From the NCBI GenBank assembly GCA_027382625.1, contig JAJKFJ010021383.1:62001-126000 (forward strand): 64,000 bases of DNA, given 5' to 3'. The notes beneath the pieces are model-generated. The model did not search any database, was not told where the DNA came from, and saw nothing but the letters and a program-made list of their open reading frames with translations. Made by a program: the position numbers and the translations under genes. Below are positions 8,528 through 54,537 of the stretch, one piece after another (within the stretch, counting starts at the first letter, position 1; every line of letters begins with the position of its first letter). The stretch comes from Tetmemena sp. SeJ-2015 (Eukaryota > Ciliophora > Spirotrichea > Sporadotrichida > Oxytrichidae).

Positions 8528-8700
8528 TTTAATAAAAGAAATATAATGTAATATAATAATTTAAGTTAGAGAGAGAGAGAGTGATAGTAGGATTATACTT
8601 AATTGGTACTTATAAGGTAAAAATAACAAATTTGAATTATTCTGGTGGATAAATGGTCTCTTAATTAAATTTAATTTCTTATATATAAAAATAATAGCAT

Positions 8701-12020: not shown

Positions 12021-12202
12021 AATTTAGCATGATTATAAGTATTAATAAAGAAATTAATTATACACAACTTATTTTCACTTTCTTATCATATTATGGGGTT
12101 TTTTAAGGTATCGCGCATAAGAAAAAGGATCGAAGAGTTCAGTAGTTAAATTCGAAATTTAGACTTTTTAAATTGTTCTAATTAATTTTGATTTTTAGAC
12201 TG

Positions 12203-12541
12203 CTCTTTTTGTAAAATCCAATGCCAATAAGACCTTAACGAGTAGCGCCCCAGACATGACCACATCGAAGATGATTTACAAAATATGGAATCGTTTGTGT
12301 TTAATGATTGACCTGGACGTTAAATTGTTGAAGAATATGACACAAGCCACCGCAATAAATGTGAACGCATCAAAGAAGGCCACTTTCTTTGGCTGAGGCT
12401 GGGCTTTCTTAATGTCTTCAGAGGTCTGCATGGAGGGTCCTGACTTTGCGCCTCTCTTTCCCTCTGGACCAAGCTGAATTCCACTTTCCATGCTTCCTCG
12501 TCTTCTGAATAGGAGGAGGAAGATTGGTTTTGCCTTTTCAT
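12203..12541 (-). pseudogene. Broken partial copy of the first segment of the 5627-8527 gene
   Basis: Nearly identical in sequence to about 8190-8527, beginning exactly at the ATG (MKRQNQSSSSYSEDEE) and ending at the same place where the parent frame is interrupted (after GFYKK). It carries at least two one-base deletions relative to the parent, one in the GAGGAAAGC stretch and one in GTTAAAGTCC, so it cannot encode the protein. Upstream and downstream flanks are unrelated. The precise ends suggest duplication of one segment, probably one MDS. Confidence 0.8.
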
Positions 12542-12898
12542 TACTATTAAACCTTATATCTTAATTGATTTTTGCAAAGTCACTATATTTGAGCAATAAA
12601 ATTTAATAATTCAATAAGCGGAAGAGATTAGTTTAGCAACTTTAATTAAAGTAGCAGTGACTTACTAAAGTGATAAATTGATTGTAATAAGTTTCTCCTT
12701 GTGTTGATGAGTTAGTCTGTGTGATTTAGTAATTTATTAATCGAAAGTTTGAATTCTTGTTCTCGACTCACTAACAATAATTAATTCAAAATGAGAGTAA
12801 TGTCTACTGAAAAGTAACTGCATCAAAAGTAAAAGATAGAGAAACAGAAAAGTATAAATCAGCAAAGCCAATATTGCCAACTTAATTTCTAAAGTTGT

Positions 12899-15248
12899 AT
12901 GCAATATATAGAAGGAACTGTAGATCAACAGCAGTGGAAGAATAAAGCTAAAGCAAAATCTTAGATCCTAAGTTCGAGAGTTCAACTTTTAAAGAAAACA
13001 TTTATAAATGCGTAAGATTAATATGAGAGAGAGATTAAGGAACAGAAGAAGAGAAAGATCAGTTCTTCTAAAAACTTGCAGCAACGAGGAAACAAAGATA
13101 AGCAAGGCTCAATACCAAGGCCGAAGCATCTCTTGATGATGAACAACCTTTCAAATTTTTATTTAATTACTCATCCTTACTCCAATATATGTTTCATATT
13201 TAAAAGCAAGAGCATGCTGTCAGTCGAGAGAAAGTCTTCTAACTTCGATGGATCGTATTTCTTACTATTTTGTGAATTTATTGTGATGGGAACAAAGTGC
13301 AATTCGGCTTATCTACTCAAGTGAATGTGATTACTGACTTACTTTCGTAATCTCAAATAACTTCGAATCAAGGTTTGCAGATTGAAGACAAGGAAAATCA
13401 GGTTTCATCTCTCAAAACTTGTCATTAAAAACTTTTGAAGCATATGTTGATGATCAATTTAAACTAGAGCCTTTTAGCAGACTTAAAGTTTATAGGGAAG
13501 GGGGGATTCCAATCAGATGATGCAAACTATGCTCTAGATGATGTTTGAGATAAGGAACTAGAATTTGTACTTGATTGAGCGTAACTTAGAGCTCGAGCGA
13601 GTGGTCAACACAGAAGTTAAGCCTATACTCGAAGATGGCCTATTTTACCTAAATCAGGAGATCATTCAAATCAAAGAGAGCAAGGGCTTCAAACCAAATG
13701 AGTAATATACTTTTTAATTAGCAAATGAGGGAATGGATGAGAGCTGTGAAAGAAATTAATTTTAGGGAGATAGAGTCCAGTCTCCAAAGCAGCAAAGACA
13801 AAATGACAAAAGTTAGCAGAAAGTTTCTTTCACTGGCATTGATTCTCAAGCGGAGTCAAGGGAATCTCAGTAGGAGGAGGAGTAAAAGCAATCACCTCAA
13901 GTAGAGGAGAAGTCTTATCGCGGCCAATAATAAGTATCATAGTAAATCTTGCAAGATAAACTTTAAAATCTTAGATATTTAAAAGCTACTAACGATGCAG
14001 ACTCAACATTTTAGAGGAAATTTGATGAGACAGTTCATGAGGTATCTTTTGCAGATCCACAAAAAGACATTATGAGATTTATACACTTAGAAACTTACTA
14101 ATTCAATATCTGATTTAGCTAGGGAGCTATGCTGATGCAAATCATGGGAATCGGATAAAGTCAAAGCTAAGCAAAGAATGAGCAGCAACAACAAACGAAG
14201 TCTGCACCCGCGAGAGGGAGAGGTAGAGGGTTTAGAGGAGGTAGAAGAAACGATAGAAACTTCAATTTTAAGTGCAATCTGAATGAAATCGATAAGATAT
14301 TGGAAGAAGGAAACGAGGGAGGATTGGGTAAACCTGGAATTCAATATATTCTTATACTTCTAGGAGCCAATGTAGATTTAAGTTTGCTTCAAAGTATGAA
14401 GAGGGGTTCAGCAACTCCACAAGTCCAATCAACAAGGATGAGATCAATCAGGACATAATTCACATACAGATGAAAGAGGAGTTAAGATGATTTAAAAATG
14501 AGGTGAGTATTTATACTAGAGTGTAACAGTTTGACATTACAGGCCAATATGAAATTAACAAGTACTAGTCAGAGGAGAAACTACAAGGAGGATCCACAAC
14601 TCAGGAGATCGTAAGGCCTAAAACTGGAAAGATCGTAGAAGGTTAAAAAAAGAGAGGTGCTTGGGGAGCTGGAGCAAGGCCCCCATCTGGTGGAATTCTC
14701 CCAAGCAAGAGAAATTATCTATAACTTACTTGTCTTGTCTAATTTTGATAGAATAGGAGGACCAGGTGATGATATTCTACAATTTTAAAGCCAAGATTCA
14801 TCTGAAATTTTAGAGTAAAAGCTGCTCTAAAAGCATAACTCTTAGGAAGAAAGTGATCCTCTGAGGGTAGTGAAAACGTTATCCATGGAGAATAATGAAA
14901 AGGCTGGTGAGGCACTGTAGCTAGAAGATCTAAAGTCTTTCTTGAATGAGGGCCATATACCTGCTAGTGTTGAACCTAGGAAACCTGCAATTCGAGGTAT
15001 GAGAGTGAATGCCCCTAACACTAAAAGAGGAATGTTCCTAACTTTTAAACTCTATTTTAGACTAAAATGTTCAAAGCACCTTCATAATTTTAAAGTTACT
15101 TGTTTCAAATTTGAAACCTCCTAAGGATTTAATAGAGAGCTTGATATCCCAAGATGAGTCAACCCAAGATCAGACTATCCCACAAATAAGACAGTAATCT
15201 CGCACTCCTAGAAAGAATCTTCAATCAAGCTCTCAGAACTATATCTGA
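12899..15248 (+). CDS. Gln-rich RGG-motif protein
   Basis: Likely start ATG 12899-12901 (MQYIEGTVDQQQWKNKAKAK), with TGA 15246-15248 as the last stop. An intron at 13402-13477 (GTTTCA...TTTTAG) joins LQIEDKENQ to QTQSLQGRGDSNQM. A 21-nt CTA-bounded insert at 14098 removes an in-frame TGA before the arginine/glycine block (RGRGRGFRGGRRNDRNFNF). Further coding-like blocks are EEGFSNSTSPINKDEINQD and KRGAWGAGARPPSGGIL, then a charged C-terminus (LISQDESTQDQTIPQ). RGG boxes typically bind RNA. Frame changes near 13140, 14345, 14487, 14720 and 15040 are not fully resolved, so it may be two genes. Confidence 0.5.
14098..14121 (+). other. Short IES candidate, pointer CTA
   Basis: CTA at 14098-14100 and 14119-14121. 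Removing 21 nt deletes an in-frame TGA and joins HLETY to QGAMLMQIMG without changing frame. The pointer is short, so confidence is limited. Confidence 0.4.
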
Positions 15249-26466: not shown

Positions 26467-29400
26467 ATGACGTCAGAAGGAAAGAGCAAACTGCGAGACC
26501 CCCTCTTGCGAGAGCACGAGCCCATCACCGTTTCCAGCATCTACAAGATCTACCCTGAGCAGCTCAAGTACCCATTCTCTAATTTTTTGACCCCTCCTCT
26601 TCTAGGGCCCTGTTCGAGGAAAGCAATCTAAGTTAATCACCGTCGAATTATTCAAACTTCAGGAAGAGCAACGAGCTACTAGAGGGTCACGGCTTCGCCC
26701 CCGGCCTCCTCAAGAAGCTCGCCACCGAGTCTGAAGTAAGTAGCTGATTCCCTTTTCTTTGTGTTGAAGCTTTGGCTGGCTCAGTTTCATGCTGAGTTGG
26801 TAATATCTGTGGCTCTGAGACAAAAGATATGGAGTCACCACCGTTTAACACTCACATCACCCTTTCCTTTAGACTGGAATTATCGGCGACAAGAGAGATA
26901 TCAAGCGCAGAAAATTATAGTAAATTTATTATATCTATTAACTCAGCTCCTGCTATATAGCTTTGGCAAGAATACCAAGCCTCTTCCTCAGGTTCCCACT
27001 CTTTGGAGCTCCATTAAGGAAGCTCTCGACGACAGAATTCTACTCTCACTGGCCATAGCTGCCTTCCTCACTATCATCACCGGCATGGTAGCAGTTGGTC
27101 CCAAGTGGGGCTGGATGGAGGGAGTCTCCATCTATCTTGCTATCTTCATCATCGTCACTTTGACTTTAAAACAAACTTTAAACCTTACCTAAAGTTTACG
27201 CTTTATTACATCTATGAGGGATATGAAGATTGACTTCACTCAACGACTGGGTTAAGGATAAGCAATTCGTGCGTCTCCAGTCTCTGGTGAAGGATGAAGA
27301 TATCGCTGTGGTCCGCGGCAAATATGGTGCTACCTAGACTGTCAACATCTACAAGTTAGTTGTTGGTGATATCATCATTCTCGAGCAGGGAGCTCGCGTC
27401 CCAGCTGACTGCCTCTTGATCGAAGGTCAGGACATCACCGTCGATGAAAGCATGTACTATGAAGACAAGAAGAAGGCAACTCCCAAGGCTCCTGCTACTT
27501 AATATTCTCCTAATGAAGATGCATTCCTTCTTTCAAACACCTTAGTCGCAACTGGCTCTGGAAAGGCAGTCGTGCTCGTCGTCGGAAAAGACTCCCGCAG
27601 AGGAATTCATGAAGAGAAGCTCGACACTGAGAGCAAGACTCCCCTCCAAACTAAGCTCTAGAACCTCGGCTCTCACTTCACTAAGTTGGGCATCTATGGA
27701 GCTATCGCCATCTTCACTGCTCTCTTGATTAACTTCATTATCAAGGTTTCCGCTTTCGAAGAGTACAGAACTGCTGGCATCATCATGAAGGCAATTAGTG
27801 ATATGCTCACCTACTCAATCGTCATTGTCATCGTTGCAGTACCTGAGGGTCTTCCCCTTGCTATTACCCTCTCACTTGCTTACTCAGTCATGAGAATGAA
27901 GCAAGACGGAGTGTTAGTGCGCAACTTGGACTCCCCAGAGGAGATGGGTAAGGTCGATGAGATCATCACTGGAAAGACCGGAACTCTCACCACCGCCGAC
28001 ATGAAGGTAGACCAATTCTACTCTCAGTCCCTCCTCATCAAGAACACCAGAAAGAACACCCTGTTCAACTGCGAACTCTTCCCCCACGTCATCGACCTCG
28101 TTCAGGAGAGTATCCTCTACAACTGCGAGGCCAGAATTGAGATGAACGAAAACGCTTTCTACGTCCCAGTCGGCAACGGAACTGAGACCAGTTTCATCAG
28201 ATTCTTGCAAGATGCTGAGATCCCAGTCCATGATCTCATCAAGAAGAAGCTCGGTAGAATTCAAACTGTGATTCCCTTCTCTACCTTAAGAAAGAGATCT
28301 CTAACTGCCGTCGCCCACCCCGACCACGACGACTTCGTGAGAGTCTACATGAAGGGAGCACCAGAGGTAGTTGTTGCCAAATGCACCAGAACTTACCACA
28401 TTGATGGTAAGGTCATCCCCCTTGACGACGGTCAAGCCAACTATATCTTGGGAGACATCCTTATCCAGAAGTTCACCACTGCTGGCTACCGTGCCCTCGC
28501 TTTCGGTTTCAAGGACATCCCAATCGATGAGTTCAACTCCCTCCGCGAGCAGTACAACAACTTCGCCTCAGAGGAAGACAGAAACGTGCTTGAGAAGGAC
28601 CTTACCTTCCTCGGATTATTCGCCCTTCACGACCCCCTCAGACTTAAGGTCAACAGCTCAGTCCAATACGCCACCAAGGGTATGATCACCACCAGACTTG
28701 TTTCTGGAGATCACATCGAGACTGCCAAGGCAGTTGCTGTTCAGGCTGGAATCATATTTCAATGCACATGCTCTCACTGATCATTATTATATCATGAACG
28801 ACCCCAAGAACTACTCTTGCATTACTGGAGAAGAATTCAGAGCCATAAACTATAAACTCAGCAACATATCACACCATTCTTGTATAAATTTCGCAGACTT
28901 GTGAGTTTAGTTGGTTCAATCATTAGATTTTGGTGTATTTAGCATAACTTGTTACTTAATTATCAGACAAGAGTACAAGGAAGATGGAACCGTGAGAAAC
29001 ACCGTCGAGAGAAGAGAGGAATTCAAAAACCTCATCAACGGAAAAGAAGGCAGACTCCCTCTCAGAGTTATTGCCAGAGCTACTTCTTACGACAAGTAAA
29101 CGCTAATCACTAATGACATACTTTATCCTATACTCATGTTGACATCTTAGTGTTTACTTGTTGGCTGTTGGTCTCAGAGACCTCGGCAGAGCAGTTGCCA
29201 CCATTGGAGAGGGTCTCAACGATGTTGATGCCATCCGTACTGCCAACGTTGGCTTCGCCATGGGCTCAGGAGTCTCCATCGCCAAGGACAACTCAGACAT
29301 GATCCTCATGAACGACAACTTCGAAGCCATGATGATGGGAGTCATGTGGGGCCGCAACATCTATCAGAATGTCCGCCGTTTCATTCAATTCCAGGTCACC

Positions 29401-30258
29401 GTCAATCTCTCAACTCTCCTCTTCGTCCTCCTCGGATGCGCCACCAAGGGTCAATCTCCCCTTACCACTGTCCAGCTCCTCTGGATCAACTTGGTTATGG
29501 ATACCCTAGCTGCCATCGCCCTTGGCTCTGAGAAACCTCACCCTACCATTATTAAGCAAGCCCCCGTCCAGGAGCACGATCACCTCGTCACCAGCACCAT
29601 GCTCAAGCAGGTCTACGGCATGACCATCTAAACAATGAAAGTGCATATAATCATGTGAAATCTTTAGATGATACAGTTTACATCTTCTTCGTGTCAACCA
29701 TCCTGTACTTCTTCGTCGACAACGCCTGGGGCATTGAGTACAACAACTCCGACCAGATGTTCGACTCCAACGGTTACCCCACCAACAAGGCTGTGGTCTA
29801 CACCATGATCTTCAACTCCTTCGTCTGGATGCACATCTTCAACGAGTTCAACTGCAGAAAGGTTGGTGCCAAGCAGTAAACCCTCATCCTCTTGAATGTC
29901 CAAGCTTCATTTATGCATCTGTAAAGTTTACAACGTGTTCACCGAGTTGATCTCTAACTGGGTATTCCTCGTTGTGATGGCAGTCATCATTACCATCCAA
30001 GTCTTGCTGGTGCAGGTATTCAACCAGTTCGCCCAGACTGCTCCCCTCACTGGAAAGCAACACGCTTACTGCATCCTAATTGGATCTTCCACCCTCCTCA
30101 TCAGTCTCATCCTCAAGACTCTCCCAGCTTCCCTCAACAGCAAGATCCCTCGTCTAGTCGATGAGAACCAAGAGCCCAAGGACGACAAACTCATGAATGC
30201 CTTCAACAGCCAAGCCAAGGCAAAGGTTTCCCAGGCCTCTTCCAGAGCTAGCCAGTGA
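26467..30258 (+). CDS. PMCA-like P2B-type calcium ATPase homologue with altered catalytic motifs
   Basis: ATG 26467-26469 (MTSEGKSKLRDPLLREHEPI) to TGA 30256-30258. After removing introns and IESs it reads as a plasma-membrane-type Ca2+ pump: LKALFEESNELLEGHGF, IKEALDDRILLSLAIAA, membrane helix M4 VPEGLPLAITLSLAYSVMRM, nucleotide domain YMKGAPEVVVAKC, hinge HDPLRLKVNSSV, NVGFAMGSGVSIAKDNSDMI and the C-terminal helices. Introns include 26550-26600 (GTACCC...TCTAG), one of about 140 nt from 26735 (GTAAGT...CTTTAG) and one from 28901 (GTGAG...ATCAG). The A-domain TGES loop is absent (VDESMYYEDKKK), the phosphorylated Asp of DKTGT is Gly (ITGKTGTLT), and GDGxND is GEGLND. It is GC-richer than its surroundings. 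Transport activity is doubtful. Confidence 0.88.
26622..26671 (+). other. IES, pointer AGCAA
   Basis: AGCAA at 26622-26626 and 26667-26671. Excision gives FEESNELLEGHGF in frame. Confidence 0.85.
26916..26957 (+). other. IES, pointer TATA
   Basis: TATA at 26916-26919 and 26954-26957. Excision gives DIKRRKLYSFGKNTKPLP in frame. A second possible pairing (ATTA) leaves a longer insert, so the exact junction is less sure. Confidence 0.6.
27160..27236 (+). other. IES, pointer TTGACTT
   Basis: TTGACTT at 27160-27166 and 27230-27236. Excision gives IIVTLTSLNDWVKDKQF, the standard P2B-pump sequence. Confidence 0.92.
28751..28795 (+). other. IES, pointer ATCAT
   Basis: ATCAT at 28751-28755 and 28791-28795. 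The insert carries TGA. Excision gives AVAVQAGIMNDPKNYSCITG in frame. There is no GT-AG alternative. Confidence 0.9.
29097..29156 (+). other. IES, TA pointer with TAAAC...GTTTA ends
   Basis: TA at 29097-29098 and 29155-29156. Excision gives ARATSYDKYLLAVGLRDLG. The insert begins TAAACG and ends GTGTTTA, an inverted pair. Confidence 0.9.
29629..29680 (+). other. IES, TA pointer with TAAAC...GTTTA ends
   Basis: TA at 29629-29630 and 29679-29680. Excision gives QVYGMTIYIFFVSTILYF. The ends are TAAACA and AGTTTA. Confidence 0.9.
29877..29930 (+). other. IES, TA pointer with TAAAC...GTTTA ends
   Basis: TA at 29877-29878 and 29929-29930. Excision gives RKVGAKQYNVFTELIS. The ends are TAAACC and AGTTTA. 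Confidence 0.9.
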
Positions 30259-40625: not shown

Positions 40626-42168
40626 ATGGAAAACAAGTACCAACTTGCAAAGAGCTATAACTTTCAATAAGATTTGGCTCCGGATATGTTCATCGACGCT
40701 AAAGACACAGTCAACCATTGGTGTGTAGCTTATAAGAAAATTTTTAGGGAGAAAAACTTAGTCAAAATTCATTTCGAAGGCTGGAGTCTCAAATACGATG
40801 AGGTAATTCGTCATTAAGATTTATATGGGGAACTTTCCTTTCTGCTGGGAATTTCTGTAGCTCTATCTTTACTTTTCTTATTTCATCTGCTCCAAATTTT
40901 CAAGGAGGACACAAGAAGCTTAATTAATCAAAATTTAGTGGATTAAAAAGAATTCACAAAGGATTACATCGTTCAGAAGACATGCAGAAGGCTACACTGG
41001 CCAAAAGAAATAGGCTCTCAGAGATTTCAAGATGGGAAATAAAAAATTACAACTCAGATGCAACTTGTAAACAACTAATCTCACTCTTAAACCTTTTTAC
41101 TATAGCTGAAGGAAGATATCGCGAGATGCATTGATGAGGGCTTCAGGAACTTCGAAAGCCATTTTTTAATTTAATATTATGAGTTCAGCCCCTATTTTTC
41201 AAAAACTTTTGGGTTTACTTCTGTAAAGCCTGGACGAACGAGGATGAGGAGGAAGCTATCTGTGTTAAAACTTAGAACTGTAGGAGCTCCTTGTCGGCCG
41301 AGTATTGCTACAAAAATTTGGAGGAAAAAAAGATAATTTTACTGATTTATTAAATCCCACAATTATAGCGAATTAACTTGACCAAAAATGTTAGTTATAG
41401 ATGGTTTTGAAGATACTTCTCTAAAAAGAAGTAAAAAAGACTAAAAACAGTGGCTAATTACTGGAAAAGCTAGCTTTATAATCTGTAGTGAAAAAAATCA
41501 GGGCTTAACGGATAATATGTGTTTAAATAAGAGACTAAAACCTTAATTTATTAAGCCCAATGCATTTAACTTAATTTGTGAGAGGAAAGCTTTACTTTTA
41601 CGTAGACTCGCTAATTTCATTGGTTGATTCTACTTAATAAATTTGCATATAATTCTCAGTGGAGGATTTGCCTATCATCTTCGAATTCATGACTTGCAAT
41701 TTTAGTTTCATAATTACATCCTCAAATGGATAGAACTATTTCCGAGCCTTTTAAAATCCTACCACGAGGCCATCTAGCATCCCAATCTCTACTTGGTAGA
41801 CATGGATGCTGCTATAGCAAGTTGTGGCCCAGAACTTTTTGACATACTCAATAAGTGTTTTGGAGGCTGCTCTAACTATTAAATTATTATCATGAAATAT
41901 CAGACTGAGTCTACCTTTGAAAGCGCTGAATAGTTTGTTAAAATACAATTTAGGGTCTTACTTTTTAAGTAGAGGAAAGAGCATAAAAGGTTGTCCCTTT
42001 GCGATGATTCTAAAAGCTCTGAATCCTGTCTACAGTATGCTTATGAAGGCTGACAAAAAATTCATGGCAGATTATTCCGACCAAGTCAAGAATATTCTCA
42101 TCAAGAGACTCGAGAAACTTTAAATGAATATTTCCTAAAAGATATAATTAGGCTATTTAGCTCGAACA
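40626..42168 (+). CDS. Giant USP-type deubiquitinase, N-terminal block (scrambled gene, piece 1)
   Basis: ATG 40626-40628 (MENKYQLAKSYNFQQ). An MBT/Tudor-like opening follows (DAKDTVNHWCVAYKK, KIHFEGWSLKYDE). Next is a Cys-containing segment (CKAWTNEDEEEAICVKTQNC, SSLSAEYCYKNLEEKK), then armadillo-like helices (LPIIFEFMTCNFSF, AIASCGPELFDILNKCFGG, DQVKNILIKRLEKL). Several AT-rich interruptions lie near 40805-40900, 41190-41220 and 41400-41650. I assign it to the same gene as the following pieces because of helical-domain similarity and position; no pointer to the next piece was found. Confidence 0.55.
42156..42168 (-). repeat. 13-bp inverted pointer in the deubiquitinase gene
   Basis: The minus strand reads TGTTCGAGCTAAA, identical to plus-strand 46593-46605, with different flanks. 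Joining keeps the frame: AEMFELK, then IAEKYL. Confidence 0.88.
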
Positions 42169-42445
42169 TCTCAGCGATTTGATCGGAGTTTTGAGGATCC
42201 CTGTACTCTATGAAATTCTTGAGCATGTAGATTATTTCTATGAGGATGTCTTTATCAAGTTCTTTGATTTCTATCTCCTAAAGGTTCTCTATAAAAATGA
42301 ATTCCTAGAGTTTCTTCTTTCCTCTATAATAGTGAAACTTAAAGGCAGTTGAAAAACTTACTTAGAGTCCTGAGTATCAAAGTCAATCATTTCAAGGATT
42401 GAAGTAAAGCCCTTTAGATGGCCAAAGCAATTGATAAAGGAAGAT
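42156..42445 (-). CDS. USP-type deubiquitinase, armadillo block (scrambled gene, piece 2, inverted)
   Basis: Minus-strand reading gives INCFGHLKGFTSILEMIDFD, a GTAAGT...TTATAG intron of about 42 nt, then KKKLQEFIFIENLQEIEIKE and LIEIIYMLKNFIEYRDPQNS, ending DQIAEMFELK inside a 13-bp pointer at 42156-42168. The next residues of the protein (IAEKYLRCNFFEKRVRGINE) lie on the plus strand at 46593. Confidence 0.8.
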
Positions 42446-42449
42446 TACA

Positions 42450-45400
42450 GACCATTGCTTTTCTTTTCCTCTCTGTTAACAAACTAGTGATTACAACATA
42501 AGTAGAAGTAATATGCTTAGTTATATTTCATGAAGAATCTTTGGCATCTTGGGCAACCTCAAATATTTCTAATTATATAGGGAGAAGAAAATTTTCACTC
42601 CTTAATAAGAATTTTATTACTTAAAGGCCTTTAGATTATTGCTAAAAATAGTTTAGTATAATATCATTTGAGAATCAGTTTAAAGACAAGAGTCATAATA
42701 AAGTCTTATCCTCCACTGAGGATTAACCAACCAATTATTATCTTTTTACAGTCACCAATTGTCATCTGAGGAAGATTTATCTTGAAATATTAGCAATAAA
42801 TGCTAGAAGAAGAATTTTTATAATTTTTCTCTGGATCTATGTCAATCACTTATGCTACACACCACTTAAATTATATAGATTTTTATTAAGATTTATTTTT
42901 CTATTGAGTTGATAAATATGATGAGAATAGGAAGCTCTCTGGAGTGACCACTCATTATGAATAGATTCAAGTTCTGGCACAAGGGACTAGTATTTATAGA
43001 TTCTCCTTAGGTGGTTGGCTGAGGTTACTAATTAATTATTATTTGATACTCTTTGATAAGATCCTGATTAGAAAAGGTTTCCAAGAGCCACACGCAAAGC
43101 TAAATATTTTTAGAAAGTGCGACTTTGACTATTTTCATGAATGTGGGGATGGGTCTTCGTTCAACTATGAATGAATTATTTTCCTTAATTATGAAGTCAT
43201 CATCTTCCTGAATGGGAATGTTTGGATATACACCCTACCTCTCATGTGTCTGCATTAAGGATTTATTCGTGAACAGGCAGAGGTATTTAGACGTTAGCTG
43301 AGTTTGCCTTCGCCACTTTGCACTATTCGTTCTCATTTAAATGATGAGCATTAAAGTTCCATCCTATAATTTTGTATGCTTCTTTGTAGAAATATTAGGA
43401 TCATCCATCATCTCGTTAAATTTCTCCATTCTCATTTTTGTAATCTCAAACTCATTTTCATTTACTTCATAGCATTTAAGAACTGCTCATTGTTACTGAT
43501 TTTTTTAAAAATAAGTACAAGTTCACAAACTTATCATCATCACCTCCAAAAGTCTCATAAGGAATCTCCTCGGGATCAAATTCTTTGACCAAGTGATCGT
43601 TGAATTCGAACCACTTTCCATTTGGATTTTCTCTATCTTAGCTCAGAGAAATATAGTGACCTTGCTCAGCTGTTCCAATATGTACAACTACTCCCTTCAA
43701 GTTATAATCATAGTATTTAGATGGGATCTAATTTTATATGCTAATCTCTTCTCGATTTGTAAATTCTTGTCTTGCATTTCTTTTATAAGATCCTATTATC
43801 ATTTCAAATTGAAAAGAAGTCACTCATGTTCATACTCATAGGGAACTCACAGTAATCGTTGATCTTGAATTTGGTCATGGTATCGTAATTGAATTCAAAT
43901 CTCTTTAGAACCATGAAAAGCACATTAGGCATCCTCTTTATGCAGCACCTCTTTAGTGTGTTAACTTTCTTCTCGCATTTCTCGCAATAGTAAGCATTCA
44001 ACAAACGTGAATGAGGACAAATATTGATTATCACATTTATTTCTGATTGTCTCCTTCGAGCATTTCTCCCTCAACAAAGGCATCTAGACTTTCCTTGATT
44101 GCTCTAATTATTAACTTGCAGATTGATGACCATAAAAGGCTCTTCTCTTTCGCTGTAGTGTGGACAACCCTTGCAGATGAACTCATTAGCGTAGACGCCT
44201 TAGAACAAGTTTCTGACTGCTTTTAGTTCCTTCTTACTTAAATTATATGCTATTCAACCCTATCCATTAGCATATTAAAGAACTCATCAGCGTCTTTTTG
44301 AACCAATGTTGAATTACATTAGAAAATAGGATGAACTTCTTGGGATTCAAGTACTGCTTTTCAGTTTCCATAAGTCCACCGAAAATCATCTTAAGCTAGA
44401 GAAAGAATTTTAAAGGTGAAGGAGGAGTCTAAAACATTTCATCATTCTAGAGTCTCTCAGACTGAGAATCCTCAACTTACGAATGAAAAATACCTACTAA
44501 AGTTTAAAGAGACTTTCTGAAAGAGGGAATCATAAATAATTGTTGCATGAAAGAGTTCATGTAACAAATGCAACCTATGTTCTTAAGCCCAACGAAACCA
44601 GTCAAAGAGCGTTCTTACTAGTGAACGTTAATAGACCAGTCATTCCTTCTAGGAGTTCTCCAAAATGTCTCACTGATTTAGCCTTTCAAATACCTAGTTA
44701 AAATGAAAATTCCATCTCCATTGTTGACGCAGAGTTCCTATAAAACCTCCAGGCATCTCTCTCTGGTCCTATTATTCTTGCATTTCGGAGGAAGAGCCTT
44801 TTGCTTGGATATCATCTAGCCTCTTGTCTCTTTGTGGAAGAGACAGTCGTGAAGAATGAATTACAGGAACTTGTTCTTCTCTGCAAACTGCTCTCTTGCT
44901 TCAGGGAATAATTTAAAATTATTTAGAAGAACTTTGAGAACACATTTTTCAGGAAAGTAAAGACCCCTGATAGAGTTATGTCCTCGTCCCTTGCGCATAT
45001 CTCTATAATATCTCTCTCATAAATGATTTGAGTAAGATCCTTTATCAACTGATTGATGGGTCTGATATTCTCTAATTCTTTGTATACTTCTGTGTTCATG
45101 AATATTTCATTCATCAAATCGAAAAACTTCTACGTCTTGAGCGTATATGTCTAAGTTAGAGCGAAGTCTAAGCAATGAAATTTTTCAGCATGGGTAGAGC
45201 TGGCATAACTCATTGATGTTGAAAGCGATGGAGTTTTGAATTTTGTCATTTTCAATATCGATAAGAGCAGTTTTAATAAGCTACCCTAACTCCTTGAATT
45301 CGTAGTAAGTTGCTAGTTCAACAGGATGAGAAATATTAGCACAAAATACTTCCTCCCAAAGAATCATAGACTATTATTTCTTAAGCTGAAGATGAGTGGT

Positions 45401-46460
45401 TAGCTACTGAGTATGCGAATGTTCTTTAAACTTGAATTTTTCAATTCATGAACCTATTGATAAATCACAGTTGAGATGAAACTACTCACAACTTAGAGCG
45501 TCTCAGTGATCAGGAGTTTCATAATAAGCAAAGATATATGTAAAGAATAGGCTTTACAATACTCAAAGGATCTTGGCTGAATAGGTGGGTAAGAATTCTC
45601 AGGATTATTGTTAAAATCTTAGTCCTCGTAATATCTGTCTCCAAGCTGTGCTTATCACAGAAATAAATCTGAGATTTTTCAATTAAAAGGTAAAAACTCA
45701 ACTATAGGCAAGTTTTTATAGCAGTCTGTAAGAAAAGCAAAGCCTCCAACCTTCACAAAGACTTAGGCTATCTCAAGCTTCGATTAGTGCTCTGCTTATT
45801 GCTACTCTGAAGTTACTTCCTTTCTTGGAATAAGCAGTTCTTCTAAAACCATTAAGAAGTAGCAGAGTCGCGCGATCTCATTTTCAGGTCCCTACCATTA
45901 GAACCTAAATTATGAAAGAAAATTTTTAAAATCTAAAGAACAGCTTTGCAAATATTGCGGAGTTGTCTTATGCTGGATTGAATTTAAGCATGTTATCCTT
46001 AAAATGAATCTTTACTTAGGTAGAAATAGGAAGAATTTCCAGCAAGCTTAGTACCTCTATTTTGCAATCTTCAGATCCATTTTTCAGCATAAATATCATT
46101 AATTTTGAAGTTACTCCCTCTCCATTTCCTCTTTAGGTACTCTCTGAATATATCATAGATTCAATTGCTTGTAATCCTTGATAGGGTCATCATATAAATG
46201 CTCTTCCAAAGGACCTTGCTTAGTCTTAATAAAAAACTCACTTCACTTAAATTTGAGCAGAGTTTTTGCGAGTTGAAAACCTGAATCTGTAAAGTGACTT
46301 TAACATTTATGAAAAGCAATTCAGTTGATGATCAGGTCTGTCTATCGAGTTCTTGAATTAAAGTAGGCACTTTTCAGTATTTTTAAATTTCAAATTTTAT
46401 TTTACCTTTGACGTTTTATAAGCTATTTACGACTACTCTATCCTCTTTTTGTCTTCTACT
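42450..46460 (-). CDS. USP9X/USP24/USP34-type deubiquitinase, pre-catalytic and catalytic block (piece 4, inverted)
   Basis: Reading from 46460 downwards: helical repeats ([20 protein letters not shown]), the Cys box [19 protein letters not shown] with the catalytic Cys codon at 44564-44566, the zinc-ribbon pairs [11 protein letters not shown] and [38 protein letters not shown], and the His box [16 protein letters not shown] with the His codon at 43656-43658, then [23 protein letters not shown]. All catalytic residues are present. The enzyme removes ubiquitin from substrates. Many short IESs or introns interrupt the block. After FGG the catalytic domain is completed by the plus-strand piece at 49.8 kb. 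Confidence 0.82.
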
Positions 46461-46592
46461 GATGATAATTGAAGCAGATGAATCCTTGCAGGTTTATCTT
46501 CAATGAAATAAAAGTTAAAATTATAGTTCATTTCATGAAAAAGAAAAATTTTTCAAACTCCATATGATCTTAATTTTTTCCATAAATAGATT

Positions 46593-46605
46593 TGTTCGAG
46601 CTAAA
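46593..46605 (+). repeat. 13-bp incoming pointer in the deubiquitinase gene
   Basis: TGTTCGAGCTAAA, the reverse complement of 42156-42168. It marks the switch from non-coding to coding sequence at the 5' edge of this block. Confidence 0.88.
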
Positions 46606-48660
46606 GATAGCTGAGAAATATCTTAGATGCAACTTCTTTGAAAAAAGAGTGAGAGGAATCAACGAACTCAAGGACATTTATTACAAGGTCCAAAATCAAT
46701 ACTTGAAGAATAGGCAAGAGTTGGCTTACATGAGATGGCTTAACAATGAAAAGTACAGTAAATGGATCATAGAATAGAAGATCTTAGACTTCATCTTCAT
46801 AGAGAATCCTCATGTTGAACTTATCAAAAGATCCTTTGAGATTCTCAGACTATTGGCAGCCGATGAAAGGTTCTTTTATAATCCATAGTTTATAATGGAG
46901 ATTTTTTCTTTACCCCAGAGATTGTTGAAATGCTTTGGAGTTGCTGCAAAGACAAGCATGAAGATATAATCAGGGCTACCCTAGACCTAATTCAAGAACT
47001 CGCTATATTCCTGCCACTAGAAAGATTGCAGCATTTCTTTTAGAAGCTTCAAACTCTTAGAGAAAATGAGTATGATGAAAAATTCGTGAGTTTCCTGAGA
47101 AACTACACCCGCAATACAATGAAAAACATCCTAAAGAGGAGGGAGGATATTAACAGAAGTAGCACTATGGGAGGGCTAATGAATAGAGGAGGTAAAAAAG
47201 ACACTAAAATTGATCCTTCTCAATACATAGATCTCCGTAAATTTTGGCTGATCATCTAAGACCAGAATAAGGTTTCATCCAAGATAAAAGAGCTTGCTCT
47301 GAACTCCTTGATAGACATACTTATGGAGTTCAATGACAAGGACTAAAAGTTGATGTTCATACAACTCTGCTTAGATAACATCAAGAAGGGAGAGACATTT
47401 TACAACTCCTTGATCTTCCTGAAGAGGATTCTGCAATCTTATCCTTTTGATGCATAGAACAGACTTAAATCTTCCTCGACTCCACAAGTGATTTCTGTCA
47501 CTGCAATCCTCCAAGACATTTTCGCTAAGTTCGATCTCTTTGCCTTCATCTTCTAAAACACTGAGCTCTATTTGAACTATTATTATAAAATGAATTGAGA
47601 ATCATCATATTTGGCTAGTGCGCAACAAATTTTGGAGATAAAAACCAAGCAAGGTGCTAACTTAGAAAAAGTTGGTTAATCCATCTTTAACGGACAAGTA
47701 ACTCATGATGAATTCATTTGGGCCCTTTTCGACTTTATTGAATTTGTGTTGGTGAACTCCAAAGTTACTCTTAAGTTTGAAAATGTCGAAAAGCTTTTCA
47801 ACTTGTTTGTGACGTCGGCAATCAGTGAAAATGAAACAGACATGTTCTTCCAACTCATCACAAAAGAAAACGAGAGAGGAAAATCCGCACTATCTAGATT
47901 TTTACTTGACGACAAGGTGAGAAAGGAAGTTTTCTAGAGGATCTTCTGTAATAATCAGTACTTGAATAGTGAAAAGATAAACTCTCAGAATAGCAATTCA
48001 CATCATTTTTCTTCATCTGCTTCAAAAGACTCTTCCTTATTGTAAATGAGGAAGAGAAGTCACTCGAGAGACAAATTTCAAATCTTAATTATGTCAAAGG
48101 CTTGGAAACTTTATGGAGCATAGCTATACAGTGCTAGAATTAGGAAGTTAAGGACCTCTGCAAAGACTTCCTCGTTGATTTGTATCTAAGGATAAGAACA
48201 AGATCCGATTCTCAAAAGAAAAGCTCCATTGAAATCTTCCCTCAAAAGTGCATATGAATAAGCTTGATTAAACACACAACTTTTTATCAATAAATTAGCA
48301 TTTAATCTTAATTGAGCTGAATTGCCTTAGGTTGATAAAGAACTTCATAAGCAGGTTTGATGGGGATCATATAGAAGAGGAAAACACGAATAATCTTGAC
48401 CCAAGAGATTCAAAGTTGATAGCAGTGACTCTCCAGCCAGACAAAGTCACTTCCATAAGTCAATTTTTAATAAGTGGATAAAAGCTCTGGTAGCTTAAGA
48501 GGAAGATGGCTACTGCATTTAAGCTTAAGCTCAGTGAGTTTAAATCATCATCTAGAAATTATGATGAATTATAATTACAAGATTGATAACATCCATATTC
48601 AGAGAGAAAGCAGGCAATTATGCTTTTATTTGAGAGGGAGTTCCCCAGATATCTAATTTT
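46593..48660 (+). CDS. USP-type deubiquitinase, armadillo and ubiquitin-like block (piece 3)
   Basis: There is no start codon. It begins in the 13-bp pointer with ELKIAEKYLRCNFFEKRVRG, then DKHEDIIRATLDLIQELAIF with LPLERLQHFF, YIDLRKFWLIIQDQNKVSSK, DIFAKFDLFAFIFQNTELYL and VTHDEFIWALFDFIEFVLVN. It continues to LRLIKNFISRFDG and KMATAFKLKLSEFKSSSRNY, a ubiquitin-like region that precedes the catalytic domain in this enzyme class. Interruptions occur near 46905, 48025, 48260 and 48600. Confidence 0.75.
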
Positions 48661-49254
48661 AAAATCTACCAAAAATATTTGGATTACAAATTTTAGTTAA
48701 TTGGTTATAGCGATGATTATCTGAACTAAGTTTATTGACCTTTTGAAAAATATTGAATGACCTATAAAGCCTCTTCTGACTAGTGAAATTATGCAACTAC
48801 CTTAATTATATAATAAAAAGCAATAATCTTCAGATATGCTCTCGATTTCATAAAGAAGGCATTAGTTTCTCATCTATAGGTAATTTATGTAATTATTATG
48901 CCAGCAACTGGAAAGCAAGTGAGTCTATTAAAGTAAAGCCCTCCTACTTCTTTATGAATATATTCCTCAATAGTTGCTTAGACTTTGCAAATAATTCAAT
49001 TTTAAATACGATAAAATGCATGTATATTTATCAGAAAGTCTATCCTCGAAGTTGATCATTAAAATCTTTTTTTATCTATTTCTCTCATTTTGCAATTCTA
49101 AAATAGAATATCAAAAGCTATTATTTTTAAGACTTTATATTGTTTATAAAAACTAAATTTAAAAAGGATTCAAATTAAAGTTTTAATTATAGAGATGATA
49201 TTAAATGATGTAATAATTAAATTTCTTAGTATAATGAATCATATTTAGTTTATG
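48661..49254. other. AT-rich stretch between deubiquitinase blocks
   Basis: Low-complexity AT sequence. The open frame at 48783-49055 looks compositional. It is probably eliminated DNA between MDSs. Confidence 0.4.
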
Positions 49255-52173
49255 ATGAAAACGTGCTATTCTAGCTTAATCCATATTTGCAAAGAAGTTC
49301 TGTAGTGCATTCAAAGACATCGATGGACAGCCAATCGATCCTATGGTTCAAAAATCCTGATTATTGCATCTAATTTAATGGGTTGAGAATCTGATTGAAG
49401 GTAAGAAGAAACTATATCAATTCAAGCTCCTATATAAAAAGGGTTATATACACTAAATTATCACATATATTTATTTACACGAAGTTAAGAACAAGCACTC
49501 AATCAAGGAACACAGTTATAAGTTAAGTGACTACGGCCAAGAAACTCTTGCTAAAAAGGATCTTATTAAACTCCTAAATATCTATCATAAACCAATAATT
49601 TAACAGTAGAAGACTTGAATGAAGACTAGAGAGCTGTCTATGATAAGTAGATCCCAGAAAACATTAAAATGATATGCAAATTTGTGAATTAAATGTATCA
49701 ACAGACTCTTGCAAATAGTGGAATGCAGAATGAGCAGAAAGCACTTTCTATTATAATTCCATTTGATAAATGAAAACTAAGATCAAGAATGCTTACGTCC
49801 TAATCTATGAGCGCGAGGAGATAATAGACATGGAGAAGTTAATCATTATATTGATGTCGATGAAAGAAGCAAGAAATAGCCTACAGATACGAATATGCAA
49901 ATCTAGAAAATTCATAAGATCCTTTAAATGATAATAAATCCTTGAGAAAAACAAGAAGTTCTGGCTGAGCAAATTCATATTCAACAAAAGCTACATCGAA
50001 TCGGTTTATAACATCTTCTTCAACATTCCTTATATTCTATTACCACCAGAGTTAATTTCTTTTGCTAATCTTGAAATTATGATGACTATGAGAATGCTAG
50101 AAACCATGATCTTCAAACAAAGTAAGGAGATTAGTTCGAGCAACTAAAGTTCCTCACTACTTTCTTCCTAACACAGTGATTAGAGCCAAGGAACGAAGAA
50201 AATAAATGCTTTCAAAGAGTTCTTAATTGACTGCCCCATACCAGATATGAAGAGATTCGTTGGAGGACTTATCAGCACAGCCATGCAGAAAGTTTATAGG
50301 CATGAGGAAGCACAAATCATCAATTACATCGCCTAGATGAATGCTAGTGTTATCGATTTCATAAATGAGTCTCAAGGGACTTCAATAAAGCATCATAGAA
50401 GCGTAAATATGGCTCAGCCAACCATTTTGATACCTCTTACGAAAAGAAGAAATGCATATTTCATATCTGAGAATTTATCAACTCATTAATCCACATGGCT
50501 GCCTCATAGCATGTGATTAACTTTTAGCTGATCTCAGGATAGCTTTACCAAGTCATGGCTCATTTCTCAGAACTTGGAGAGCAGGCAAGGCTTTACCTGC
50601 TGAAGAATAAGCAGCTAGCAAGATTCCTAGAGTTGATTTCCCAGAATGAAAAGCTCACCCCTCAAACTGTGGATAAGGTAAGAAATGAGTCACTACAGTA
50701 AATCCCCCTCTTCAAGATAGAAAAGGAGTTCTACATAGCCTAAAACCTTGAAAAAGCAGTCATTATATTGACGGTTAATGAGAAGAAGCTACTCCTTAAG
50801 GATTTAATTCCCTGGCAAACATTCGTTTCCTACATCATTTCCAAGCTTGCTAGAAAAGTATTTTTGCTCTATTTATGAAATTTGCGAGATCATGCATCTT
50901 TGTAAAATCTTAGGTCCCCAACCCTTACGCCTTAGACTCACTCGCTTTCATCCCCGACGATTTGGAGATGAGCTTGATAATAAACTTCAAGAACGAGTCG
51001 TGGTGGCGCATCAGCAGCTTTAACAAGATTTCTCGTAATGCAGTTGCAGATATGTTCGCCACATGTCATTCGATAATAAAGAGATGTCTCTGCAGCTGAT
51101 TCAGCACTTGTTAGAATCCATCAATCGCGTGTCTTTCGACGGCTACAAAGTATTCGAGAGAGCCTTGGTAAAGCAGGTCATAATTAAGGACTAGTACTAG
51201 CTTGAAAGGACCAAAAAGATCTTGCAAGGCTTGCACGACATAATCAGAGCTAACACTTAGTAAACTAAATTTTCTCAACAAGAAAGGAGTAAACTTCTTA
51301 TTTAAGGTTTATTATAAGGACGTAGATTCTTTGATAGAGATAATTGTGAAGATGGCTCACAGATCGTAATATGTAGTAGACTTGATGGGAAAATCCTCTA
51401 ATCTCTACAAGCTGATAGAAATGTGGTCCAAGGAGTACCCCCACATTCCCCTAAACCAAAGCAAGGTGAAGATCTTCAAGCAGGGTCTGATCGGCAATAA
51501 CGCCTTCAAGGGCAACTTGCAAGTAAACCAAAACTTCATAGAGAGGATGACAGCTTACACCAAAGAAAGGCTAGGCAGGCTTTAGGCTTTGGTCAGCAAG
51601 GAGATTACACCCGATGAGAATCAATACGATTCAGACGATGACATGTACGAGGCTAATCTACAAGAGAACTAGAAAGTTGATTACAGGTAAGCTAAAAAAC
51701 ACACTATCGCATGCTTATTTATCTCAGAATTTAATATTCTTAGGTTTCGCTAATCTTCCTTTTAGGGATCCTTTCACAAATGAATTCCTACATAAATGAG
51801 ACAAACAACTTTGTTGTAATTATTAGATTCCAGACAGGAGTGGTTGAGATTAACTTGGATCAGATGGTAAGAGTAAGGAGAGAGGAGAGAATCTACCAAT
51901 CCAACCATCAAGCCAATAAGCAGTGCCAGCCTCACACTTGGATCGAATGCGAAGCAGACAAGCTTGCACCCCGCGAACACTCTCTCGATTAGCGAGAAGA
52001 GAAGGTTCTAAAACTATTTCCTACAGTTGCTAAACGCCATGCTACAAGGAAATAAACTGTGTATAATCAATTATTATTCTAACTTATTGAAATTGAGACA
52101 ACTGAAGAGGCATCGATATCATGGGTTGATCTAATAGCACAAGGCAATAAAAGTGTTCTTAAGTTAAAGTCTT
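49255..52173 (+). CDS. USP-type deubiquitinase, catalytic end and C-terminal block (piece 5)
   Basis: From about 49780 it reads TKIKNAYVLIYEREEIIDME, the conserved end of a USP catalytic domain (NAYILFYER in animals). EKNKKFWLSKFIFNKSYIES, NIPYILLPPELISFANLEIM and FLIDCPIPDMKRFVGGLIST follow, as in the C-terminal half of USP9X-like enzymes. It then continues through DLMGKSSNLYKLIEMWSKEY and TPDENQYDSDDDMYEANLQ to TGA at about 52171-52173. The first 500 bases (FKDIDGQPIDPMVQ and further fragments) are not assigned. Interruptions occur near 49770, 50870, 51240 and 51690. Confidence 0.65.
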
Positions 52174-52582
52174 GACCATGCAGGCCTCTATCTCTTTAAT
52201 AATTATTTACATAAAACGCATATGGCTTATATAAGGTGAGGAAATGAAAGAATAGAAATGAGGATAATTAATTACTTCTTCTTAAGACTGGATTAATTTC
52301 ACCAGTTATCTTGCTTTAAGGGATCTCCTGCGATAAATTATTAGTGCTGCTGAATTAGCTTAATACTCTCTAGTGTTAAAGATTTATAAATAATTCAAAA
52401 AATAAGAGGGACTCAGTTATTAACATTTGAACATCACACAAATGACATAGTTTATTTAAAATTTTTATTCAAAGGTTTATAAATTAAAGGACTATTAAAT
52501 TTACTTATAAATAATTGTAAGGCCAATAAGTGAAGTAATAAGTTATATAAAATATCAATTACTTCAACTTACAATAATTTAA
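52174..52582. other. AT-rich spacer
   Basis: No gene seen before the PDI start. Confidence 0.6.
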
Positions 52583-54537
52583 ATGAAGAGTACATTAGCC
52601 CTTATCGCAGCACTATTGAGTGCAAGCGTACTAGCAGCAGGCCCTGGCAGCGGAGAAACTTTCTATGACGAGAGCACTAAAGTTGTCAAGCTCACCAATC
52701 AAAACTTCAAACAGCTGGTAGCAGATGACAAAGAAGGCATTTGGTTTGTGGAATTTATTCATTACTTATCATATTAACATAGTGTGTGAGTGATTTTATA
52801 AAGTAATTTTACGCGCCTTGGTGCGGCCATTGCAAACGCTTAAAAAGCACATGGATTGACCTTGCTAGATACCTCGAGGGTGAAAACATCAAGGTAGGCG
52901 CAGTTGACATGACCACCGATCGTGACGTGGGTGCCCCCTTCGCCATTAGAGGATTCCCCACTTTGAAACTCTTCGGCGGTGATAAGAGAAAGCCCCTGAC
53001 CTACAACGGCAAGAGAGATCTAGCCAGTCTTACTGCCTATGCTATTGAGACTGCAGCAGAGCAGAGAAAGGGTATCGCTGAAGGTCTCTACGAGAGAAAG
53101 CCATGGAAGGAGGAGTCTACACATCTTAATCACCTATATCTTATATTAGAGAGTCCTCTAGCAATGAAGAGGAGCACAGAAAACTTAACGACTTTGAGAT
53201 GCCAGATGTGAAGAAGATGAGCAAGAATTAGAGGAGCGACACCGTAAATTGGAGAAGGAAAACGAGAAGAGAAGAATGAGCGGTGAGGAGCCAGACAGGA
53301 AAAGAGCAGGTCGTGGCATTCCCCAGGAGGTCAAGAGAATCGACTCTGCCTTTTGGGACGAAACCGTTCTTAAGGGCGACAAAGACTGGATCATAGTCAT
53401 TGCTAAGGATAGCGACAGAGAGACCATGAGAATTGGCTCAACCATCAGGAGAGAACTCAGCAGAATCCAAGAGAAAGTTAAGATAGGATAATTTAGAATC
53501 TAATTCATACTTACAAGAGTATTTGTGGATTCATCAATGCAGACGAGTAATAGGCTTTAGTTGATAGACTTGAGATCCAAGAAATGCCAGCAGTTAAGTA
53601 CTTTGCAAAGAAAGAAGGTGGTCTTAAGGACTCAGATGCTCAAGATGCTAAAGTCAAGGGACAATTAATAATTGGCTTATTTTCAAGTTATGAATATAGG
53701 ACTGGTATCTTTCATGCCAATCGTGAACAAGCTAGTCCAAGATGTTGAATCCCTAATTGAGAAGATCACAGACCAGAGAAGCTTCAACATAAAGTGCAAA
53801 CCTAGAACTATCTGTATCATCTTCTAATGCTTTCATAAGATATTTTGATGTATATAAACATCTTCTACGTTCCAAAAGAACTTTCCACTGAGGAGAGAGA
53901 AGCATTAAAACTTCTCTCCAATTAGTTTTTAAGCCAAGTTGAAGGCTTTGCAAAGCCACGTGTCAAAGGCTGACGACATGACTTTGGCTTTCATGTGGAC
54001 TACCTACGATCAGCAACCCAGTCTTCAAAACGCTATGAAGGTAACCACCTCTGATGCCATCCAGTTGGAGTGATCAGACCCTTCCAACGCAAGAAGGCCC
54101 TCATGGCCTCTTCCCTTGATTTGGATTCTGAAGATGCAATAATTCTCTTATTATAATGCATCAATTCTTCTCTTTAGATGGCAAAGTTGCACTCAAGAAT
54201 TTCCTGAAGGACGTCATCGAGGCAGACTTCCCCTTCGACGACATCTCAGACGGCGAGAGACCTAGAATTGTAGACCTGGGAAGAGAAGAGAGGGAGGAGT
54301 CGTTCAGAAGAAGAAGACTCGACAGGGAACACAGAAGAATGGACTTTGAGGAAGAAGACATGATGATGCAAGATAGAATGCCTCCCAAAGTTTGACAAGG
54401 AGGACTATGACCAATACAGGGAGGATCCCTCAGGCCACAGAGAGAGGATGGAAAGACACAGAGAAGAACTTAGAAGAGACATCTAACGCCGCAGAGACCA
54501 AATGGAAGAGATGAGATAGGGCTATGCTGAACTTTGA
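52583..54537 (+). CDS. Protein disulfide isomerase-family protein (thioredoxin domain, ER)
   Basis: ATG 52583-52585 with a signal peptide (LALIAALLSASVLAAGPGS). The thioredoxin active site is intact after IES removal: [20 protein letters not shown], with the cis-proline segment IRGFPTLKLFGG. A charged linker (EENEKRR-type helices, RAGRGIPQEVKRIDSAFWDE) and a second thioredoxin-like region (ICGFINADEQQALVDRLEIQ, MPAVKYFAKKEGG) follow, then a long charged C-terminus ending at TGA 54535-54537. Four IESs are solved. Unexplained frame changes occur near 53226, 53925, 54073 and 54390. The enzyme would form or shuffle disulfides in the endoplasmic reticulum. Confidence 0.8.
52752..52809 (+). other. 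IES, pointer AATTT
   Basis: AATTT at 52752-52756 and 52805-52809. Excision restores [13 protein letters not shown], the PDI active site. Confidence 0.93.
53113..53155 (+). other. IES, pointer GAGTC
   Basis: GAGTC at 53113-53117 and 53151-53155. Excision gives KPWKEESSSNEEEHRKL in frame. Confidence 0.8.
53818..53867 (+). other. IES, 9-bp pointer CATCTTCTA
   Basis: CATCTTCTA at 53818-53826 and 53859-53867. Excision gives RTICIIFYVPKELSTEE. Confidence 0.9.
54132..54179 (+). other. IES, pointer AGAT
   Basis: AGAT at 54132-54135 and 54176-54179. Excision gives LDLDSEDGKVALKNFLKD in frame. Confidence 0.82.

Follow-up and report, generated by a model that had tools for sequence, protein, structure and literature searches.

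The 64,000-nucleotide stretch of DNA analysed here (the window; positions 62,001-126,000 of its contig) almost certainly contains a germline (micronuclear) locus of a ciliate, very probably a spirotrich, carrying one scrambled USP9X/USP24-type deubiquitinase gene in odd-even order, with the even-numbered macronuclear-destined sequences (MDSs) inverted. The gene is divided into about 60 MDSs connected by 59 pointer joins. All 59 pointers are exact repeats of 3-14 nt, and 50 of the 59 joins switch strand through pointers of 4-14 nt. The order and orientation of the MDSs, their pointers, the open frame and the domains of the joined gene are established by the present analysis, while the execution of these joins in the cell and the activity of the resulting enzyme would follow from established ciliate biology. 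A first-pass annotation, made by a model from the letters alone, had described a giant deubiquitinase readable as five strand-alternating pieces; the strands were assigned correctly, but the pieces turned out to be clusters within the 60 MDSs and 59 joins, so that a real alternation had been underestimated (four switches rather than 50). Its proposal that both inversion and permutation are involved is supported by the MDS order, the pointers and the domains.

Two fold-back arrays bridged by one pointer

Translated alignments of three homologues first placed successive protein stretches on alternating strands, and the map was then built by a profile-guided path search followed by join-by-join inspection of shared words, frame and homology. 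With cheap jumps the path search returned 265 segments, mostly noise, and this version was dropped; raising the jump costs brought the output down to 59 and 60 segments, with tiny MDSs missed and some segments spurious. TAA and TAG are read as glutamine at this locus, as in the ciliate code, with 59 such codons in the final frame. Along the chromosome the MDSs follow the order 1 3 5 6 8 10 12 -13 -11 -9 -7 -4 -2 -58 -56 ... -19 -17 14 15 16 18 ... 59 60, where a minus sign marks inversion, and the odd-even order is shifted where a few successive MDSs share one strand. In array 1 (MDS 1-13) the plus-strand region 40,626-42,116 interdigitates with the minus-strand region 42,864-42,156, and in array 2 (MDS 14-59) 46,593-50,323 on the plus strand interdigitates with 46,500-43,048 on the minus strand. 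Within each array (11 and 38 pointers) the pointer positions strictly rise on the plus strand and strictly fall on the minus strand, and every switch runs in the opposite direction to the one before it. The pointer order along the chromosome therefore reads as two "return words", of 11 and 38 pointers, bridged by a 13-mer.

This 13-bp pointer, TGTTCGAGCTAAA, is the sole join linking the two fold-back arrays. It lies at 42156-42168 on the minus strand and 46593-46605 on the plus strand, exactly where the first-pass annotation had placed it, and has one forward and one reverse match in the whole assembly of 146,216,379 bases (5,213 contigs), compared with 10 matches for the same pattern read backwards as a control. 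Across it the frame passes from AEMFELK into IAEKYL, as had been proposed, and the joined sequence reads DPQNSDQIAEMFELKIAEKYLRCNFF.

MDS 1-59 range from 21 to 669 nt (median 71), 31 on the plus and 28 on the minus strand, with no overlaps among those assigned; the 58 gaps between neighbouring MDSs measure 3-392 nt (median 30). Internal eliminated sequences (IESs) are typically AT-rich relative to MDSs, and here the GC content is 36.9% in the assigned coding MDSs against 25.3% in the IESs (37% in the joined gene). Pointers at strand switches are longer (mean 8.84 nt, n=50) than those between MDSs on the same strand (4.67 nt, n=9; p 1.3e-5). The assignments are listed below; each pointer leads to the following MDS.

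40626-40729, plus: MDS 1; start codon, MBT-like domain begins; pointer TGGTGTGTAGC to MDS 2
42824-42864, minus: MDS 2; pointer GAGAAAAA
40749-41033, plus: MDS 3; holds intron 40803-40938; pointer ATTTCAAGAT
40803-40938, plus: GT-AG intron in MDS 3, placed by frame and homology
42763-42788, minus: MDS 4; pointer CTCAGATG
41053-41160, plus: MDS 5; holds intron 41067-41105; pointer AAGCC
41067-41105, plus: GT-AG intron in MDS 5
41553-41624, plus: MDS 6; pointer ATTGGT
42708-42759, minus: MDS 7; pointer CTCAGTGGAGGAT
41655-41694, plus: MDS 8; pointer ATGACT
42665-42696, minus: MDS 9; pointer CTCAAATG
41721-41866, plus: MDS 10; pointer GAGG
42337-42560, minus: MDS 11; pointer TTTAAGT
41964-42116, plus: MDS 12; pointer GAGAA, within an imperfect 11-mer
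42156-42289, minus: MDS 13; ends in the bridging 13-bp pointer TGTTCGAGCTAAA
46593-46876, plus: MDS 14; starts with the bridging 13-bp pointer; own pointer TTCTTT
46906-47574, plus: MDS 15; ARM region; pointer TATTTG
47608-47982, plus: MDS 16; pointer AAGATAAAC
46469-46500, minus: MDS 17; pointer TTCATCTGCTTCAA
48012-48251, plus: MDS 18; pointer AAAAGTGC
46316-46374, minus: MDS 19; pointer CTGAATTGC
48317-48541, plus: MDS 20; pointer AGTGAGTTT
46168-46242, minus: MDS 21; pointer ATTACAAG
48574-48606, plus: MDS 22; pointer ATATTCAGAGAG
46113-46151, minus: MDS 23; pointer GAGAGGGAGT
48632-48695, plus: MDS 24; pointer TTTA
48731-48751, plus: MDS 25; pointer TGAAAAAT
45999-46086, minus: MDS 26; pointer ATTTTAA
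45549-45932, minus: MDS 27; holds intron 45651-45702; pointer TAAAGCCT
45651-45702, minus: GT-AG intron in MDS 27
48765-48793, plus: MDS 28; pointer ATTATG
45386-45525, minus: MDS 29; pointer ATCTTCAG
48826-48874, plus: MDS 30; pointer TTTCTCATC
45199-45333, minus: MDS 31; pointer TTATGCCAGC
48896-48985, plus: MDS 32; holds intron 48919-48973; pointer TTGCTTAGACTT
48919-48973, plus: GT-AG intron in MDS 32
44929-45175, minus: MDS 33; pointer TTC
44510-44908, minus: MDS 34; putative catalytic Cys codon; pointer TCAGAAAGTCT
49031-49065, plus: MDS 35; pointer AAT
49233-49279, plus: MDS 36; pointer TCTAGCTTAA
44333-44400, minus: MDS 37; pointer AAGAAGTTC
49292-49354, plus: MDS 38; pointer TGGTTCAAAAA
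44254-44305, minus: MDS 39; pointer GGGTTGA
49380-49408, plus: MDS 40; pointer GTAAGAAG
44111-44237, minus: MDS 41; pointer AAGTTAA
49482-49510, plus: MDS 42; pointer CAATCAAGGAA
44046-44101, minus: MDS 43; pointer AAT
43818-43998, minus: MDS 44; pointer AGTGACT
49526-49566, plus: MDS 45; pointer AGGATCTTAT
43760-43794, minus: MDS 46; pointer AATTTA, set with homologue P0198
49597-49656, plus: MDS 47; pointer TAGATCCCA
43522-43730, minus: MDS 48; putative catalytic His and Asp codons; pointer TTTGTGAA
49681-49737, plus: MDS 49; pointer AATGAGCAG
43455-43491, minus: MDS 50; pointer TAAATGAAAA
49767-49837, plus: MDS 51; UCH domain ends; pointer ATGGAGAA
43377-43429, minus: MDS 52; pointer AAAGAAGCA
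49863-49895, plus: MDS 53; pointer ACGAATA
43257-43330, minus: MDS 54; pointer AATAAATCCTT
49933-50029, plus: MDS 55; pointer AACATTCC
43195-43222, minus: MDS 56; pointer ATGATGACT
50079-50199, plus: MDS 57; frame break near 50170-50176; pointer GAACGAAGA
43048-43162, minus: MDS 58; pointer TCAAAGAGT
50212-50323, plus: MDS 59; pointer ATCAA
50477-52175 (end approximate), plus: MDS 60 and onward; C-terminal part, collinear, placed by profile alignment only

Two assignments were revised during inspection. For the join that follows MDS 46, AAGAC gave way to AATTTA as the pointer, homologue P0198 having residues like KNLTVEDLNEDQ; the new join adds the plus-strand residues NLTVEDLNEDQ to a first map version of 1,966 codons. 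An intron at 45649-45698 was replaced by 45651-45702. Some pointers sit in longer imperfect repeats, namely GAGAA within GAGAA[A/C]CTTTA (42112-42122 and 42279-42289) and the pointer inside an 18-nt repeat with one mismatch at 41650-41667 and 42708-42725, a pattern that drift or shrinkage of pointers would produce. The plus-strand IESs at 40730-40748 and 41625-41654 keep the frame open by chance and would mislead a gene finder into translating them, with incorrect residues as the result.

The joined protein and its homologues

Between 40,626 and 50,176 the joined pieces can be read through 1,977 codons without a stop. This frame crosses 56 of the 59 joins and four introns and contains no TGA, as against 68 and 92 stops in the other two forward frames. 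The joined protein contains an MBT domain at residues 29-69 (22.8 bits, cut-off 22), PF25010 ARM_UBP24_USP9X-Y (92.9 bits, cut-off 27) and a complete UCH domain (PF00443, 1-254 of 254 positions covered, E 5.6e-50). The UCH domain is assembled from 18 stretches on both strands, 112 of its 371 residues coming from the plus and 259 from the minus strand. The codons for Cys (44564-44566), His (43656-43658) and Asp (43596-43598), which we take to be catalytic from the usual motifs of the family, all lie on the minus strand, in agreement with the earlier observation of intact catalytic residues. A phmmer search of the PDB with the concatenated catalytic pieces returned USP9X (FAF-X; E 2.8e-53) and USP34 (E 5.7e-50) as the best matches. 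The joined product is predicted to be a USP9X/USP24-type deubiquitinase.

A rough joined protein found 75 relatives. Among the 16 best, several occupy contigs about 8 kb long, which matches a nanochromosome with a single gene in size. The first-pass annotation had suggested alignment to homologues, and BLASTP indeed gives single alignments running through the joins, covering residues 20-1976 for the uninterrupted homologue P0004 (29.8%) and residues 212-1287 for P0001 (43.6%). Individual joins were assessed by local alignments with 10 homologues chosen from those found, where a switch counted as gap-free over nine residues. Among the 48 strand switches covered, 45 are gap-free in at least one of the 10 (44 with the first map version), including 19/19 for P0198 and 15/17 for P0001.

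Pointer chains detected independently of homology

Chains of exact inverted matches were scored in the two arrays and compared with 200 dinucleotide shuffles in four tests. With words of at least 7 nt the scores were 80.0 (array 1) and 235.4 (array 2) against shuffle means of 39.8 and 144.0, and with words of at least 8 nt they were 77.1 and 225.9 against 35.3 and 128.5. The corresponding z values range from 6.6 to 9.8, and in each test 0/200 shuffles reached the observed score. Direct-orientation controls remained at the null level (39.2 and 149.3 for words of at least 7 nt, 35.4 and 132.2 for at least 8 nt). The homology-free chain recovers 38 of the 49 array pointers (6/11 and 32/38), only 43 of the 49 having the 7 nt needed for detection.

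We also scanned the window for inverted matches between block pairs 1.5-9 kb apart, using 1,008 distant control values, the largest of which was 88.25. The five strongest inverted pairs (95.8-120.3) all fall inside the deubiquitinase locus, and the 64-kb scan showed no further fold-back locus as strong. A weak collinear inverted signal between 9001-10500 and 11251-13500 (9.0 with 11.3-12.0 kb) scored 90.1 and 90.0, just above the control maximum, and might reflect another fold-back locus or chance.

Limits of the map and alternative explanations

Several points weigh against the reading of the locus as one scrambled gene. The evidence comprises germline sequence and homologues rather than a macronuclear contig, a telomere-capped read or RNA. 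Homology and frame guided the manual curation of the joins, and maintenance of the frame is therefore partly built in and is not independent proof; the pointer chains, the window scan, and the GC and pointer-length differences are more independent. The chain itself holds 33 other elements (71 in total), as chance matches would give. The distant full-length homologue P0004 is gap-free at 32 of the 48 switches, and the three at ATTGGT, TTTAAGT and TTGCTTAGACTT lack a gap-free alignment with any of the 10 homologues. The pointer map extends to about 50.5 kb; the C-terminal part beyond it is placed on the plus strand by profile alignment only and may include short IESs or introns. Finally, one frame break occurs near 50,170-50,176 of the joined gene; the reading of homologue P0196 suggests that one base is missing from the assembly, but an allele or a join that escaped notice may instead be responsible.

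If each strand carried a gene of its own, either as two divergent genes or as a gene with an inverted paralogue, this would account for the long open frames on both strands and for the plus-strand IESs that stay in frame (those at 40730-40748 and 41625-41654). This arrangement, which the first-pass annotation had itself named as the alternative, is nevertheless extremely improbable, since within the window neither strand encodes a separate full-length gene: the one UCH domain needs both strands, in the proportions given above, and homologues read straight through the switches. Moreover, a 500-base joined query against the 146-Mb assembly gave three matches, all to the scrambled pieces, and no unscrambled or second copy. 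As no unscrambled copy was found with this query, we infer rather than observe the macronuclear assembly of the gene. We give equally little credence to an assembly artefact in which read fragments are chimeric or inverted. In its favour are the draft state of the assembly and the frame break in the joined gene. Misjoined reads, however, would hardly produce 59 pieces with defined limits, 21-669 nt long and free of overlaps, in which each piece has an exact repeat in common with its successor in protein order, and GC content differs between assigned MDSs and IESs.

A fold-back layout would also follow from an inverted duplication. Local duplication followed by decay is the origin that odd-even loci are reported to fit, an MDS and the IES that it replaces being correlated in length and similar to each other (PMC9797194, following the model of Gao et al. 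2015 cited there). Here MDS and partner-IES lengths are weakly correlated (rho 0.27, p 0.06, 47 pairs; rho 0.23, p 0.12 with the first map version). Their similarity over 46 pairs, 676 (674 with the first version), exceeds the shuffle mean of 638.8 by about 2 sd (sd 16.6; highest of 200 shuffles, 681) and the non-partner mean of 645.5 by about 1 sd (sd 29.2). These figures neither support nor exclude an old inverted duplication. That the locus is a decayed duplication, a pseudogene without product, would agree with the similarity above shuffles and with the frame break, but is very improbable, if a little less so than the preceding two alternatives, given 1,977 stop-free codons, the retained catalytic residues, the weak length correlation and the small excess over non-partners. 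Joining at the RNA level by trans-splicing is likewise hardly credible. Although sequence alone cannot separate DNA from RNA joining, the known DNA process would account for the pointer repeats, the GC-poor IESs and the occurrence of homologues on 8-kb contigs (approximate size), and the four GT-AG introns lie apart from pointers or adjoin one. A scrambled germline gene joined at the DNA level thus remains the preferred explanation.

A predicted order of joining

During macronuclear development the pointer pairs would recombine, with one copy retained; each recombination would invert and join neighbouring MDSs, GC-poor IESs would be discarded, and the end product would be a macronuclear gene reading MBT - ARM - UCH. 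Hairpin and loop operations are described in the gene-assembly literature, and our formal simulation was restricted to hairpin inversions and simple excisions. With the 13-mer joined last, all 59 joins complete (49 inversions and 10 excisions); with the 13-mer joined first, 49 joins are blocked. Out of 2,000 random orders 440 finish, the 13-mer being join 54-59 of 59 in 440/440, and all 1,244 orders with the 13-mer at number 50 or earlier get stuck. If only these two operations are used, the 13-bp bridge must therefore be joined late. It is tempting to speculate that the layout fixes a partial order in which, with these two operations only, the cell would pass through two near-complete half-genes (MDS 1-13 and MDS 14-60), while the doubly folded germline DNA would keep the remaining 49 inverted pointer pairs aligned with each other, a tentative proposal that we consider rather unlikely to hold; template-guided assembly need not follow a bridge-late order. 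The layout provides a concrete prediction on joining order for a developmental time course.

Other features of the window

An apparently unscrambled calcium-ATPase-like gene (27227-30000, plus) carries the phosphorylation motif GKTGTLT where DKTGTLT would be expected. Among the best 120 of 2,481 relatives, GKTGTLT occurs in 11 and DKTGTLT in 72; the two closest among the matches listed (82-85% identity) carry GKTGTLT, so the change is conserved. Directly downstream of the deubiquitinase locus lies a protein disulfide isomerase-like gene (about 52580-54200, plus; motif APWCGHCKRL), whose first exon looks split from the rest by a short interruption. The strongest direct signal of the window scan (7.5/11.3 kb) corresponds to a direct duplication of about 440 bp with 89% identity (8098-8528 and 12106-12542). 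An Rfam scan of the window and of 12 10-kb stretches of the same assembly gave no match.

Comparison with known systems

A near-complete map, with 50 strand-switching joins inside 10 kb, could be drawn from germline sequence and homologues alone, and reading raw sequence can thus reveal scrambling without a macronuclear reference. Judged by the titles listed from the literature, a scrambled ciliate USP9X/USP24 gene has not been described, and the listed papers that contain both "Oxytricha" and "ubiquitin carboxyl-terminal hydrolase" are unrelated. The joined protein shares the Pfam domains UCH and ARM_UBP24_USP9X-Y with the USP9X/USP24 deubiquitinases and differs from them in its N-terminal MBT-like domain. 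Extreme scrambling, with inversion and odd-even order, is familiar from the hypotrich DNA polymerase alpha gene.

In Tetmemena sp. and Euplotes woodruffi, scrambled genes have been described, with 13.6% of Tetmemena genes scrambled and a GC content of 32.2% for the micronuclear and 37.05% for the macronuclear genome (Feng et al. 2022, PMC9797194). If the organism studied here is Tetmemena sp., which seems somewhat more likely than not, the locus probably sits within a published genome-wide map of 3,371 scrambled genes. As in the spirotrich germline genes discussed there, pointers are longer at scrambled joins; unlike in the young odd-even loci that it describes, similarity between MDSs and IESs is not clear at the deubiquitinase locus.

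The inverted and permuted MDSs also recall the Stylonychia lemnae actin I gene, where the genes covered in the corresponding 2008 article have pointers of 3-19 bp (PMC2394655). Actin I, as presented there, has 10 MDSs, two of them inverted, in contrast to about 60 here, with 28 of the first 59 inverted. A close parallel is provided by the return words of Oxytricha trifallax, in which odd MDSs stand in order and even MDSs are inverted in reverse order, in the form 1234 4321 (Braun et al. 2018, PMC5940158, citing Burns et al. 2016a); according to that paper, combinations of repeat and return words cover 96% of scrambled loci. The present locus shows the same odd-even order with inverted even MDSs as the return-word loci treated there, and consists of two such words, with 11 and 38 pointers, inside each of which lies one copy of the bridging pointer. 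It illustrates a known phenomenon very clearly and is a fine instance of it rather than a new principle.

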